Origin: a virus
IMG/VR virus record: IMGVR_UViG_3300008448_009521
Location: 1-29,030 of that record
Reading direction: 5' to 3' (one strand)
DNA length: 29,030 nucleotides
Shown here piece after piece: positions 11,479 through 27,545 of this stretch. Each line of letters begins with the position of its first letter. The stretch's first letter is position 1. A program made the translations under genes and the position numbers. The notes under the pieces are model-generated. The model saw only the letters and a list, made by a program, of their open reading frames with translations. It was not told where the DNA came from and searched no databases.

Positions 11479-11895
11479 ATGGTAACACAATTTGCTATGG
11501 ATCTTTTTAAGGATCCATTTTTTATTGGTTTCAACCGAGAGTTGGAACGATTTAATAGTCTAAGTAGGGTAAACAATACTGCTTTCCCGCCGTATGATTT
11601 ACTTAAGCTAGACGAAGATAACTATCAGCTAACTCTAGCAGTTGCTGGGTTTACAAAAGATGATTTAACAGTATCTATAGAGGACGGAAGTCTTTGGATT
11701 ACTGGTGAAATCACAGAGGTAATTGATGCAGAGGTTGTTCATAAAGGAATAGCTGCACGTAAATTTACTAGAATCTTTGAACTAAGTGAGTACATGGAAG
11801 TTTCTAATGTTGAACTTAAAGATGGTATGCTACATATCAGAGTAATTAGAAATGTTCCAGCAGAAAAGAAGCCAAAGATTCTAAAAATTAAATAA
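11479..11895 (+). CDS. Small heat-shock protein (Hsp20 / alpha-crystallin)
   Basis: This 138-aa protein has an alpha-crystallin domain at about 33-125: PYDLLKLDEDNYQLTLAVAGF, LTVSIEDGSLWITGE, then RKFTRIFEL and LKDGMLHIRVIRN. The C-terminal PKILKIK contains the I-x-I/L type tail that links oligomers. The N-terminus (ATG 11479, ribosome site GAAGGAGGA) is Phe-rich as in other Hsp20s. It would bind unfolded proteins without ATP, possibly protecting virion proteins during assembly. Hsp20 is known in some cyanophages. A phage GroES is encoded 12.5 kb downstream. Confidence 0.9.
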   Translation: MVTQFAMDLFKDPFFIGFNRELERFNSLSRVNNTAFPPYDLLKLDEDNYQLTLAVAGFTKDDLTVSIEDGSLWITGEITEVIDAEVVHKGIAARKFTRIFELSEYMEVSNVELKDGMLHIRVIRNVPAEKKPKILKIK

Positions 11896-16344: not shown

Positions 16345-16578
16345 ATGCTTAACCTTACACTAAAGGGTGTAGAAGTTTTTATGAATAGATCAAAGACCAA
16401 AAGTCAGGAATCATTTTGGGATAATTACGATCTTATAATATGGAAAAAAGATAGCGGCGGATATACTAACATCAAGGGGATGTTTAGAAAAAATTCATGG
16501 GGTACAGCAGAAACAATTTCTGTTGATGATCATGGGATATGGAAGCTGCCTTTAAAATATGTCAAGCATTTTAAATGA
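16345..16578 (+). CDS. Hypothetical 77-aa protein
   Basis: The protein has a central YDLIIWKKDSGGYTNIKGMF and ends ETISVDDHGIWKLPLKYVKHF. It has many aromatics and basic residues, suggesting a small beta-rich fold with nucleic-acid affinity. The start at 16345 follows GGGA; an in-frame ATG at 16381 is possible. The end overlaps the WhiB gene by 20 nt, so they are co-transcribed from the tRNA-Asn region. Function unknown. Confidence 0.7.
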   Translation: MLNLTLKGVEVFMNRSKTKSQESFWDNYDLIIWKKDSGGYTNIKGMFRKNSWGTAETISVDDHGIWKLPLKYVKHFK

Positions 16579-16858
16579 TTTAGGTATAGACAAAGAGGAT
16601 TTTGACTGGTTTGATTTTGCGATATGCAAAGGAATGGACACTAACCTATTCTTTGATCAATACGAAACAGATATAAATATAGCACAAAATATTGATCAAG
16701 CATGCATATCCTGCCCAGTAAAAAAGAATTGCTTGTTAGCAGGGCAGACAAATAATGAGTACGGTGTTTGGGGAGGAATATATTTATCAGCAGGATCTAT
16801 TGATACAAATAAAAATATTCATAAGACACCAGATGTCTGGAAAAGGCTAAAAAAATGA
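16559..16858 (+). CDS. WhiB-like Fe-S transcription factor
   Basis: This 99-aa protein has the four WhiB cysteines, C23, C49, C52 and C58 (CISCPVKKNC), and the GVWGG turn at 69-73 followed by a basic C-terminus. WhiB proteins hold a 4Fe-4S cluster, contact the main sigma factor and are essentially confined to actinobacteria and their phages. This is the best host indicator in the window. Known phage WhiBs can redirect host transcription. The gene is coupled to its neighbours by overlaps. Confidence 0.93.
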   Translation: MSSILNDLGIDKEDFDWFDFAICKGMDTNLFFDQYETDINIAQNIDQACISCPVKKNCLLAGQTNNEYGVWGGIYLSAGSIDTNKNIHKTPDVWKRLKK

Positions 16859-19023: not shown

Positions 19024-19230
19024 ATGGCCAATATGACAGTGCTTGAAGGCATCATAGAAGATGTTTCAACAGAGCTGTACCAAAAACTTTGGAATGCTAT
19101 TCCAATAGAAGAGCAGACGGAAGATTCTTCACGAGCAATAGGATTAAACTCCAGAGAAACTACCATATTTGTTATTCAATCTTTTATGAATAAGTTTAAT
19201 GCTGCTGCAGAGGAACTAAAAGATAAATGA
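19024..19230 (+). CDS. 68-aa helical protein
   Basis: ATG 19024 lies two bases after the previous stop and is preferred over an upstream in-frame ATG (18997) that would overlap the neighbour. The acidic, helical product includes EGIIEDVSTELYQKLWNAIP and a C-terminal FMNKFNAAAEELK. Its last codons overlap the thioredoxin start. Function unknown. Confidence 0.65.
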   Translation: MANMTVLEGIIEDVSTELYQKLWNAIPIEEQTEDSSRAIGLNSRETTIFVIQSFMNKFNAAAEELKDK

Positions 19231-19532
19231 TTGATTTGACAGACTTAAGCTTTGATGAGGAAATAAATTCTTCTAAGAAGTGCCTAGTATATTTTTGGGC
19301 TGACTGGTGTGTTCCATGCAAAAGGCTATCACCAATAATGCAGGAGATAGAGTCAGAGTATGATATTAGTGTATTTAAAGTTAATTCTGATGAAAATCCT
19401 ATCAAAGTTTCTCAATTCTCAGTATTCTCAGTACCAACTGTGGTATTATTTAAAGATGGTGAACCAATTAAGACCATAATAGGCGCTATGCCTAAACATT
19501 TAGTCGTAAAGGAATTTAGTCAATGGATTTAA
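19227..19532 (+). CDS. Thioredoxin-fold protein
   Basis: This 101-aa protein carries WADWCVPC with the redox Cys28 and Cys31 and the cis-Pro motif FSVPTVVLF near 65-75, as in classical thioredoxins. The spacer V-P differs from the usual G-P, which can change redox potential. It likely reduces disulfides in the host cytosol, for example in ribonucleotide reductase, none of which is in view. ATG overlaps the preceding stop by ATGA. Confidence 0.92.
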   Translation: MIDLTDLSFDEEINSSKKCLVYFWADWCVPCKRLSPIMQEIESEYDISVFKVNSDENPIKVSQFSVFSVPTVVLFKDGEPIKTIIGAMPKHLVVKEFSQWI

Positions 19533-24219: not shown

Positions 24220-24399
24220 ATGAGTCAAAAACAAAGATCAAAAGATCTAAAGCGTTCTCAAAAAAAGAAATCACATGAAAACTATCTAAAAGGATTATTT
24301 AATAGATATGGCCATGGGCTGTTATTGAACAGTAATAGTGAGGCTCCAGGAAATAAATACTGGACTGAGATAAATGCAAAGAAGGCTTTAAATGACTAG
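24220..24399 (+). CDS. 59-aa basic protein
   Basis: AAGGAAAAGGG precedes ATG 24220. The N-terminus is highly basic (QKQRSKDLKRSQKKKSHENY); the rest holds a short helix and ends in an overlap with the GroES gene. Possible nucleic-acid binder; no motif. Confidence 0.65.
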   Translation: MSQKQRSKDLKRSQKKKSHENYLKGLFNRYGHGLLLNSNSEAPGNKYWTEINAKKALND

Positions 24400-24706
24400 T
24401 ATTAGACCATATGGATCATTAGTTTTAGTAAAAGAAAATGTTGTAACTGATACAACAACTGCATCTGGATTAGTTTTAACAGCTGGAATTGTTGATAGTT
24501 ATGTAAGGTCTGGTACTGTAATTGATGTTGGTCCAGGAGAAAGAAGTGCATTTAGTAATGATATTATGATAATGGATGGCATTGAAAAAGGTATGACTGT
24601 TTACTATGGTCGTGGTGCTGGAACAGATATTAAAGATGAAGATGGAGAAGAATACATCTTAATCAACTATAAGAATTTATTGGGGTTTAAATATACTAAT
24701 GCCTAA
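24392..24706 (+). CDS. groES: GroES-like co-chaperonin (Cpn10)
   Basis: This 104-aa protein has the GroES pattern: IRPYGSLVLVKEN at the start, a mobile-loop-like TTTASGLVL near 22-30, GTVIDVGPGE, then GMTVYYGRGAGTDI and EYILINYKNLLGF. Length fits the 95-105-aa family. It would cap the host GroEL and tune it for phage proteins, as T4 Gp31 does. No GroEL is encoded here. It overlaps both neighbours. Confidence 0.93.
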   Translation: MTSIRPYGSLVLVKENVVTDTTTASGLVLTAGIVDSYVRSGTVIDVGPGERSAFSNDIMIMDGIEKGMTVYYGRGAGTDIKDEDGEEYILINYKNLLGFKYTNA

Positions 24707-24830
24707 ACAATGTACATGTGGTCATTCTTCAAAATATCCTGTATGCGACGGAAGTCATAAAGCTTTAGATTCTGCTATGGAAGTAAGAATACCGTTGACT
24801 TTTAATGTTAAGGATGAGGATGCTGAGTAG
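24699..24830 (+). CDS. 43-aa CDGSH iron-sulfur protein
   Basis: The frame starts in the GroES tail (ATG 24699). It has C5-T-C7, then C16-D-G-S-H20. The spacing C-x-C-x2-S-x3-P-x-C-D-G-S-H is an exact match to the CDGSH (mitoNEET-type) 2Fe-2S motif with three Cys and one His. At 43 residues it is near the minimum for the fold. Such proteins transfer electrons or Fe-S clusters. The gene is missed by length-filtered gene callers. Confidence 0.85.
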   Translation: MPKQCTCGHSSKYPVCDGSHKALDSAMEVRIPLTFNVKDEDAE

Positions 24831-24942
24831 TCTTTTATGCCTATTTATAGGACATTCATTAACAATAGAGGCTGGCTCATGCCCATACACTGGAAAGACA
24901 TATAAGGCTTGTGGCAGGTGCATGAAGATGGAGGCTATTTAA
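24820..24942 (+). CDS. 40-aa small cysteine protein
   Basis: AAGGA lies 6 nt before ATG 24820, and an in-frame ATG at 24814 is an alternative. The protein has a hydrophobic N-terminus (LLCLFIGHSL) and CPYTGKTYKACGRC, a Cys pattern like small zinc knuckles. Its last codons include GGAGG, the ribosome site of the next frame. Confidence 0.62.
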   Translation: MLSSLLCLFIGHSLTIEAGSCPYTGKTYKACGRCMKMEAI

Positions 24943-25122
24943 ATTTATAAAAGAATCTTATTAAGTGGAGAAGAAGTAGAAAACTTAGATACTCCAGTTG
25001 ATCTAACAATACATACAAAGTGCCCAGAAAAATGGCTCCTGATTGATCTAGAGACTGGTCAAGAGTATCGTGGCCAAGCAATACCCAATCAATATGGGAA
25101 ATGGAAGAGGGTAAAAGAATGA
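24943..25122 (+). CDS. 59-aa protein with apparent ATT start codon
   Basis: From 24943 an open frame runs 60 codons to TGA, without any ATG, GTG or TTG in the first half. The first codon ATT is 8 nt after a perfect GGAGG, and TGA overlaps the next gene ATG (ATGA), both signs of a real gene. The product has TKCPEKWLLIDLETGQEYRG, a motif I know from actinophage proteins. The preceding stop is the adjacent codon, so read-through of TAA from the 24820 gene is the alternative. Confidence 0.65.
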   Translation: MYKRILLSGEEVENLDTPVDLTIHTKCPEKWLLIDLETGQEYRGQAIPNQYGKWKRVKE

Positions 25123-25349
25123 TGTGGTCATGGATACTAGCAGCTATAGGTGTTACAGGCATATTCCTGGTCGGTAGAAAGACCATATGGGGTTGGCTAA
25201 TACTATGTGTAAATGAATGCCTGTGGATTGCCTACGCCCTTGCAACAGACCAATACGGGTTTATAGCTATGGCTGTAGCATATGCAGCAGTATATATTAA
25301 ATCTTATATGCATTGGAAAAAAGATGAAAAGGTAGAAGAATGGATATAA
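25119..25349 (+). CDS. Small membrane protein, possibly PnuC-like half
   Basis: This 76-aa protein starts at ATG 25119 in an ATGA overlap, with GAGGG 10 nt upstream. Three hydrophobic stretches (WSWILAAIGVTGIFLVG, WGWLILCVNECLWIAYAL and FIAMAVAYAAVYI) end in a charged HWKKDEK. The W/Y pattern recalls the C-terminal half of PnuC-type transporters, but it is too short to be a full one. Function uncertain. Confidence 0.62.
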   Translation: MMWSWILAAIGVTGIFLVGRKTIWGWLILCVNECLWIAYALATDQYGFIAMAVAYAAVYIKSYMHWKKDEKVEEWI

Positions 25350-26170: not shown

Positions 26171-26443
26171 ATGTTTAATATAGTAGGTAAATACCTATTG
26201 AGGAATAGACTACTTAATAAGGCGATAGAAGAAGTCCTCATGGAGGAGCAATCTCTACGTCAATCTAACAATGCTGGATTTGATATATGGGGAGCCAATA
26301 ATTTAGCCTGGAAAGAAGGCGATACTTGGTATGGCTGGACATATAACTATTCTAAGAATAGATACTTCTTTGATGATATTGGATCAACATCTCTCATGGA
26401 GCTATGGGAAACACAATGGGAATGGGAAGAGCTGGACACATGA
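26171..26443 (+). CDS. 90-aa protein under the repeated leader
   Basis: ATG 26171 is preferred over an upstream in-frame GTG (26138) that lies inside the repeated leader. The product has a helical N-terminus (VGKYLLRNRLLNKAIEEVLM) and a Trp/Tyr/Asp-rich C-terminal half (WGANNLAWKEGDTWYGWTYN). No known family. ATGA overlap with the oxygenase gene couples the two. Confidence 0.68.
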   Translation: MFNIVGKYLLRNRLLNKAIEEVLMEEQSLRQSNNAGFDIWGANNLAWKEGDTWYGWTYNYSKNRYFFDDIGSTSLMELWETQWEWEELDT

Positions 26444-27099
26444 ACAGAATAGTCTTAGGTGAAAAAGTACATTATTATGAAGATGCTATTATTGATTTTG
26501 AAAAATTAATAAATACACTTAAAGATATAGATAAAATAAACGATAAAGATACCTGGGAACCCTGGTCTGCATCAGATAACATAAATTCTATATATGGTGA
26601 AACTAAAACACTTAATTCGAAAGAATTTGATAAATTTGAAGAATTTTATAAGATAAAAATTAATTATGTTTATGAAACAATTATGGACTCTTTTTATAAT
26701 GTTTGTAAAGATTATGGACAATTTATTAAAGACGAAAATGAACCAAATTTTTTGCCTGCTTTTGACATAAAAAAATATTATGAGGGCACACACATGGGCT
26801 CTCATTTTGATCAACTGGGTGGGGATAAGACACTTAAGTACTCCCTTGTTATGTATCTAAATGACAATTACGAGGGTGGCGAGATTTCTTTTACTTTAAA
26901 AGATTTAAAAAGCAGTAACGAAAGAGGGCCCTTTCCTGACTATTCAGATAAAAGGAATAAAGATTTAATGAATTTTGGGGTAAAGCCGAAAGCTGGTAGC
27001 GTAATTATTTTTCCATCTTCTCTCCCATACTATCATACTGCACACCTTGTTAAATCAGGGACTAAATACATGGTCCCATCTCATTGGATAGAAACATGA
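26440..27099 (+). CDS. 2OG-Fe(II) dioxygenase (prolyl-4-hydroxylase-like)
   Basis: This 219-aa protein has H122-x-D124 (MGSHFDQ), GGEISF strand, PKAGSVIIFPS and then H199 with K209 (HTAHLVKSGTKY). H-D-H would bind Fe(II), and K209 takes the place of the usual 2OG-binding Arg. Many phages carry these hydroxylases, acting on proteins, nucleosides or other small molecules. ATG 26440 fits the ATGA overlap, though an upstream in-frame ATG exists at 26404. A probable second oxygenase lies at 7075. Confidence 0.88.
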   Translation: MNRIVLGEKVHYYEDAIIDFEKLINTLKDIDKINDKDTWEPWSASDNINSIYGETKTLNSKEFDKFEEFYKIKINYVYETIMDSFYNVCKDYGQFIKDENEPNFLPAFDIKKYYEGTHMGSHFDQLGGDKTLKYSLVMYLNDNYEGGEISFTLKDLKSSNERGPFPDYSDKRNKDLMNFGVKPKAGSVIIFPSSLPYYHTAHLVKSGTKYMVPSHWIET

Positions 27100-27545
27100 T
27101 TGAAATATCTATAAATAGCGCTAGAAGTTGTGGTACCTGTACTAAATGCTGTGATGGATATGCCTATGCAGATGTCTATGGGCATATTATGGGTTTCGGA
27201 GTTCCATGTCATTTTGTAAAAAGTGGAGAGGGATGCGGGATCTATGAAAATAGACCTAATTTCTGTAAAACCTTTTCATGTAATTGGTTAGTCAATGATG
27301 AGATTCCAGAAGAGCTAAAGCCCAATATAACAGGAAGCATGCCTAATTTGTTATCAACTCCTGATGGGGTTCAATATATTATTCTTACAAATGCTGGCAA
27401 TGACCCAAGAGAAGATGTCTTGAATTGGTATAAAAAATACTCAGAGTCTAAAGGATATGGGTTAGCCTATACAATTGACGGAGTAAAGCAATTTTTTGGA
27501 ACAAAGGAATTTGTAGAAGAAAGGCGGAGGCAATGGGAATCCTAG
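27096..27545 (+). CDS. YkgJ-type CxxCxxCC cluster protein
   Basis: This 149-aa protein begins with CGTCTKCC (CxxCxxCC), followed by PCHFV, EGCGIYENRPNFCKTFSC, the cysteine pattern of YkgJ-type proteins predicted to bind zinc or an Fe-S cluster. Function is unknown. It starts in an ATGA overlap with the oxygenase gene, so a linked function (metal supply or redox) is possible. Confidence 0.85.
   Translation: MIEISINSARSCGTCTKCCDGYAYADVYGHIMGFGVPCHFVKSGEGCGIYENRPNFCKTFSCNWLVNDEIPEELKPNITGSMPNLLSTPDGVQYIILTNAGNDPREDVLNWYKKYSESKGYGLAYTIDGVKQFFGTKEFVEERRRQWES

Follow-up and report, generated by a model that had tools for sequence, protein, structure and literature searches.

The CDGSH iron-sulfur proteins of the CISD/NEET family (PF09360) have been divided into types 1 to 7, and the domain is defined by an N-strand with a hydrophobic residue (Phi1), a cluster cradle and a P motif (Lin et al., 2011, PMC3174974). 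According to the same work, the integral cradle structure requires a beta-sandwich. Neither phages nor viruses are mentioned in the two main surveys of the family.

The window analysed here, the whole 29,030-nucleotide stretch of the IMG/VR virus record IMGVR_UViG_3300008448_009521, encodes a 43-amino-acid protein with a CDGSH motif next to groES (Table 1). Loci are referred to by number, the window being L001. Its gene content identifies the window as an actinophage fragment, from a phage of an uncultured actinobacterium; the phage origin rests on the terminase, WhiB, five tRNAs and the IMG/VR virus record. The terminase is 65% identical to those of large (about 130-kb) Streptomyces phages, and WhiB serves as a marker of actinophages (PMC10202952, PMC6802176). 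The fragment also encodes Hsp20, thioredoxin and GroES, placing metal, redox and chaperone genes within the same 29 kb as the miniprotein.

Table 1. Features of the window, with positions counted from its first letter.
Feature	Position	Strand	Remarks
CDGSH miniprotein gene	24699..24830	+	43 aa, predicted to be cradle-only; MPKQCTCGHSSKYPVCDGSHKALDSAMEVRIPLTFNVKDEDAE
CDGSH cradle, C5xC7..S10..P14xC16DGSH20K21	24711..24761	+	17 residues, matching zf-CDGSH profile positions 32-48
C-terminal tail with RIPLTFNV, Pro at His+12	24762..24827	+	may be a degenerate P motif of the type 1 CISD kind
groES (Cpn10)	24392..24706	+	Pfam Cpn10 6.7e-14; stop overlaps miniprotein start by 8 nt (ATGCCTAA, 24699-24706)
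Small Cys-rich ORF, GSCPYTGKTYKACGRC	24805..24942	+	family adjoins miniproteins in L007, L027, L030, L037, L144, L121
Conserved downstream gene 'LTIHTK', VDLTIHTKCPEKWLLIDLETGQEYRG	24952..25119	+	common to miniprotein loci L030, L037, L144, L027
PnuC-like membrane protein	25101..25349	+	conserved neighbour
2OG-Fe(II) oxygenase (PF13640)	26404..27099	+	1.6 kb downstream of the miniprotein gene, same strand
Hsp20	11479-11895
WhiB	16559-16858
Thioredoxin	19227-19532
CxxCxxCC protein	27084-27545		PF03692-like, below cut-off

The miniprotein frame starts with ATG, with no in-frame ATG, GTG or TTG further upstream, and contains the complete CxCx2Sx3PxCDGSH motif of the family, as an earlier sequence-only reading of this DNA had proposed. 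The spacing is exact, and the four ligands C5, C7, C16 and H20 are all present together with S10, P14, D17, G18 and S19. The Pfam zf-CDGSH profile, named in that reading as a check, matched at its cut-off of 29.5 bits (29.1 bits, E 1.2e-6; 29.6 bits in the genome search). Only residues 5-21 were aligned and positions 1-31 of the 48 in the profile were left unmatched, which agrees with the earlier description of the protein as essentially one cluster-binding motif. None of 300 Markov-shuffled versions of the window contained the motif in any of the six frames, even in the looser form CxC...CDGxH. The top PDB matches by phmmer were all CDGSH proteins (3tbn, 6avj and 3tbm). A SEC-C type zinc motif was rejected: zf-CDGSH was the sole Pfam match, and a SecA peptide in the PDB reached only E 1.3. 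Since the match is confined to the end of the profile, the protein is predicted to be a 17-residue cluster cradle that lacks the strand region found N-terminally in known CDGSH domains.

An N-strand with a hydrophobic Phi1 is absent, as only MPKQ precedes C5 and the Phi1 position is Gln, and the sequence leaves no N-terminal room for a beta-sandwich. Of the P motif, [G-P-Phi-X-Phi], the tail has I-P-L-T-F at His+12 with the Gly absent. P-Phi-X-Phi is matched in the window pair, while the syntenic loci L030, L037 and L144 retain G(T/K)PF at His+12 and not Phi-X-Phi; most other miniproteins have no P motif. The structural prediction suggested in the sequence-only reading did yield an AlphaFold2 model, made for the miniprotein with 30 viral relatives, at a pLDDT of 64.7, but one with no secondary structure assigned and no Foldseek match in the PDB.

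A motif scan of IMG/VR returned more than 100 contigs with a CDGSH motif. About 66 distinct proteins have it 2-5 residues from their start, either standalone (24-60 aa) or fused (up to ~280 aa), although in a few cases the start may lie inside a longer protein. The smallest is 24 aa long (MKKCTCGKSKSKPTCDGSHQQKEK). Some cradles sit at the C-terminus of other domains in viral contigs: L021, L034 and L053 encode proteins of ~123 aa with a WYL_2 domain (Sm-like SH3 barrel, PF10902; Pfam match for L021), and a ~72-aa family (L025, L032, L104, L110, L115-L117, L324 and others) has an SH3/KOW-like N-terminal part, assigned by eye and with no Pfam match. For this ~72-aa family, a 2OG oxygenase lies within 1 kb in 9/15 cases.

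Because retrieval by motif cannot tell whether the motif is kept, loci were instead retrieved via two neighbour genes, the PnuC-like gene and the 'LTIHTK' gene. About 16 distinct CDGSH-type proteins were found at these loci by a profile search that can miss badly decayed copies, and all retain the three Cys and the His, the conservation in relatives on which the sequence-only reading had made its claim depend. The positions that drift are others (CNGTH, CDNTH and CDGMH, i.e., D to N, G to N and S to M). One diverged miniprotein, in L319 (2102-2293, MGKCACGFTRNEEKNCDGTHK), has a spacing of +1 through one extra residue and no cradle proline; it retains the four ligands.

We consider it rather probable that the miniprotein binds a [2Fe-2S] cluster in an ordinary CDGSH cradle. 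The CxC...CDGSH loop could instead be a zinc knuckle, in which Zn(II) takes the place of a redox cluster and the loop forms a small module with a structural role or for binding proteins or nucleic acids. Such a role would suit a very short protein without a beta-cap, many members of which have Lys-rich tails, and other short cradles are found on SH3-like domains (WYL_2 in L021; SH3/KOW-like in L025, by eye). However, the cradle-specific positions S/T7, P11, D14, G15 and S/T16 (Lin et al., 2011) are kept in most members and the D to N and G to N variants are few, so that we regard a zinc knuckle as unlikely.

The sequence-only reading had also taken the overlap with groES to couple Fe-S handling with protein folding, a link that is not supported. 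The overlap itself is consistent with translational coupling. A groES gene near a miniprotein is confined to the window type, L153, L052 and L027. Within the window's group there are other phages with groES and no miniprotein, and most miniproteins have no groES nearby. A functional GroES-CDGSH unit as a general rule was therefore rejected, given the rarity of the adjacency and a close relative (L004) with groES and no miniprotein, and the adjacency is a local arrangement. Further downstream, the 'LTIHTK' gene of the window has no ATG, GTG or TTG start within 24944-25122, nor does that of L004, and its homologues begin MRRLL, which suggests that translation begins at a rare codon (ATT) or is coupled to the stop just upstream.

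Compared with groES, 2OG-Fe(II) oxygenases, AhpC/AhpD and ribonucleotide reductase are stronger partners, and ones that recur. An N-terminal cradle is fused to a PF13640 oxygenase in L023, L010 and L007, where Pfam finds both domains. In L380 the cradle is C-terminal on an oxygenase-like protein, which is an oxygenase by sequence resemblance only, as Pfam finds the CDGSH part alone. A 2OG oxygenase lies within 2 kb of 36/66 miniproteins, compared with 86/370 random points on the same contigs (Fisher 9e-7, a value inflated by the relatedness of the phages and by the non-independence of points within a contig) and 0/121 cellular CDGSH loci among the matches listed. In one phage group (L018, L010, L023, L031, L039, L054, L059, L114 and L133), the miniprotein is surrounded by rows of several 2OG-Fe(II) oxygenase-like genes in tandem. 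The AlphaFold2 model of the fused L023 oxygenase has a good oxygenase core; its cradle, residues 1-22, was modelled at very low confidence (pLDDT <50, about 40-46), and a contact between cradle and active site cannot be claimed from it.

In relatives of the window locus (L030, L037, L144, L027 and L052), AhpC and/or an AhpD-like CMD protein stands beside the miniprotein; neither AhpC nor AhpD was found in the window. Among 80 neighbour-fetched loci, 19/25 with AhpD have a miniprotein, compared with 6/55 without, counts in which related phages are not independent and some loci are cut by the 3-kb flanks. In L139, nrdA lies upstream of the miniprotein gene, and nrdB and glutaredoxin lie downstream. 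The contexts differ between subfamilies and, the phages being related, are not independent; what they share appears to be chemistry that involves iron and redox reactions, rather than protein folding.

The confinement of similarity to the cradle, purifying selection, ligand invariance, the fusions and the iron/redox contexts led us to favour, at slightly worse than even chances, a role as a minimal [2Fe-2S] accessory to the iron and redox enzymes of phages. A self-contained 17-residue cradle of three Cys and one His, with its short tail, would hold the [2Fe-2S] cluster, whose loading we infer; it would have lost the N-strand along with the greater part of the beta-sandwich through which cellular CDGSH domains dimerise. 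Expression would be from the groES cistron, probably via stop-start coupling. The protein would most likely be redox-labile, serving as an electron or iron/cluster donor or as a redox switch, with partner and direction of transfer both conjectural. Its clients may be phage-encoded non-heme-iron and thiol-redox enzymes, kept working while the infected host is under peroxide stress or short of iron. Against such an accessory stand the structural requirements of Lin et al. (2011), both missing in most miniproteins, the low confidence of the AlphaFold2 models, the non-independence and variation of the contexts and, in the window, the failure to find AhpC/AhpD and the distance of 1.6 kb to the nearest oxygenase.

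A closely related possibility is a metallochaperone, dedicated to the delivery of iron or Fe-S clusters to phage 2OG-Fe(II) oxygenases and class I RNR and not to electron donation. NEET proteins transfer clusters, and the 2OG oxygenases of the fusions and the nrdA/nrdB neighbours are both iron enzymes. Nevertheless, a redox role is the better fit for the AhpC/AhpD context, and dedicated delivery seems to us improbable to much the same degree as the zinc knuckle.

Viral and cellular genomes were compared with an identical DNA pattern, an ATG two codons before the motif. In viral contigs there were 43 distinct cases, and 30/43 had no more than 12 open codons upstream, i.e., the motif was truly N-terminal. 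Among the matches listed for GTDB genomes (at least 117 distinct), 0/117 had no more than 20 open codons upstream; these were ordinary full-length or tandem CDGSH proteins with an internal ATG, plus a few C-terminal tails. In six Bacteroidetes and Verrucomicrobia loci (L202, L217, L230, L244, L245 and L252), a larger conserved protein ends ...GKGMND-CxCGxSxxMPxCDGSHK. Given such cradle-only tails, bare cradles are not strictly viral. A tblastn search of 50,697 phage records in INPHARED gave no convincing relative of the miniprotein, the recurring weak match being an unannotated gut-phage record (MT835643), and a literature search for phage CDGSH proteins found no paper. The earlier remark that no phage example had been characterised therefore stands, and the miniproteins form a widespread and conserved viral set that is apparently undescribed.

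In the class of Microbacterium sp. TPD7012 (actinobacteria), 116/198 genomes carry CDGSH proteins. Nearly all of the matches span profile positions 1/2-48; only two begin at ~30, of which one lies at the edge of its contig. A host gene as the direct source of the miniprotein was judged unlikely because these proteins are full-length. Their frequency would also provide partners if the miniprotein paired with a full-length host CDGSH protein and so altered or hijacked host Fe-S/ROS handling, and the dimer-interface residues P and Phi12 of the motif are largely retained. Such a partner swap is quite improbable in our view, since the phages that carry miniproteins are varied and the miniproteins form fusions with phage oxygenases or lie in their midst.

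Identical copies of the gene are present in L001 and L002. Between the window and L003 there are five synonymous and three non-synonymous changes, none of which alters a ligand (pS 0.195, pN 0.029, ratio 0.15). Purifying selection was found in nine miniprotein subfamilies (pN/pS 0.11-0.38), including members of 24 aa. The close relative L004 has a GroES 91% identical to that of the window and no miniprotein, the next small ORF following directly after groES. The gene is accessory, yet selected where present, because it is missing from L004 and has a low pN/pS against L003. A decaying CDGSH fragment or spurious ORF, as might be suspected from its tiny size, its absence from L004 and a Pfam score at the cut-off, is in the main refuted by this ratio, the syntenic orthologues with intact ligands, the many subfamilies and the lack of motifs in shuffles, and is very improbable indeed.

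More broadly, and with somewhat less assurance than for the [2Fe-2S] accessory, we propose that viruses have reduced CDGSH to nothing but the 17-residue cradle, used as a portable [2Fe-2S] module for phage iron/redox chemistry, while cells mostly keep the full-length form. The module might, equally tentatively, exist as standalone proteins of 24-60 aa, as N- or C-terminal tags of 2OG-Fe(II) oxygenases and as tags of SH3-like domains. If this is true, the CDGSH cradle works without the beta-sandwich thought necessary to build it, and miniproteins of 24-43 aa are among the smallest natural iron-sulfur proteins. It would also explain redox or iron support in phages for 2OG-Fe(II) oxygenases, which some carry in rows. 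The fused forms place the cradle and a candidate client enzyme on one polypeptide, making the idea directly testable.

The miniprotein shares the exact C-x-C-x2-S-x3-P-x-C-D-G-S-H cradle with types 1-7 of PF09360 (PMC3174974). It differs from them in being viral and in having no N-strand (four residues precede the first ligand), tandem motif, membrane anchor or profile positions 1-31. The Pro that the tail has at His+12 is similar to the P motif found C-terminally in type 1, but a type 1-like fold was rejected for the class as a whole since most miniproteins have no P motif. Type 4, the single-motif type of Actinobacteria, the likely host group (RsCISD, 3tbm; phmmer 5e-4), likewise has one motif; unlike the miniprotein, it has both a P motif and a sheet of five strands on the N-terminal side of the cradle. 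The best PDB matches, MmCISD (3tbn, 6e-6) and human CISD3 (6avj, 1e-4), are tandem proteins of types 5/6, which differ from it in having two motifs, about 80-90 aa and a monomer with an internal pseudo-dyad. Because the N-strand is missing, we describe the miniprotein not as a standard family member but as a reduced, cradle-only CDGSH derivative that probably works like a CDGSH centre.
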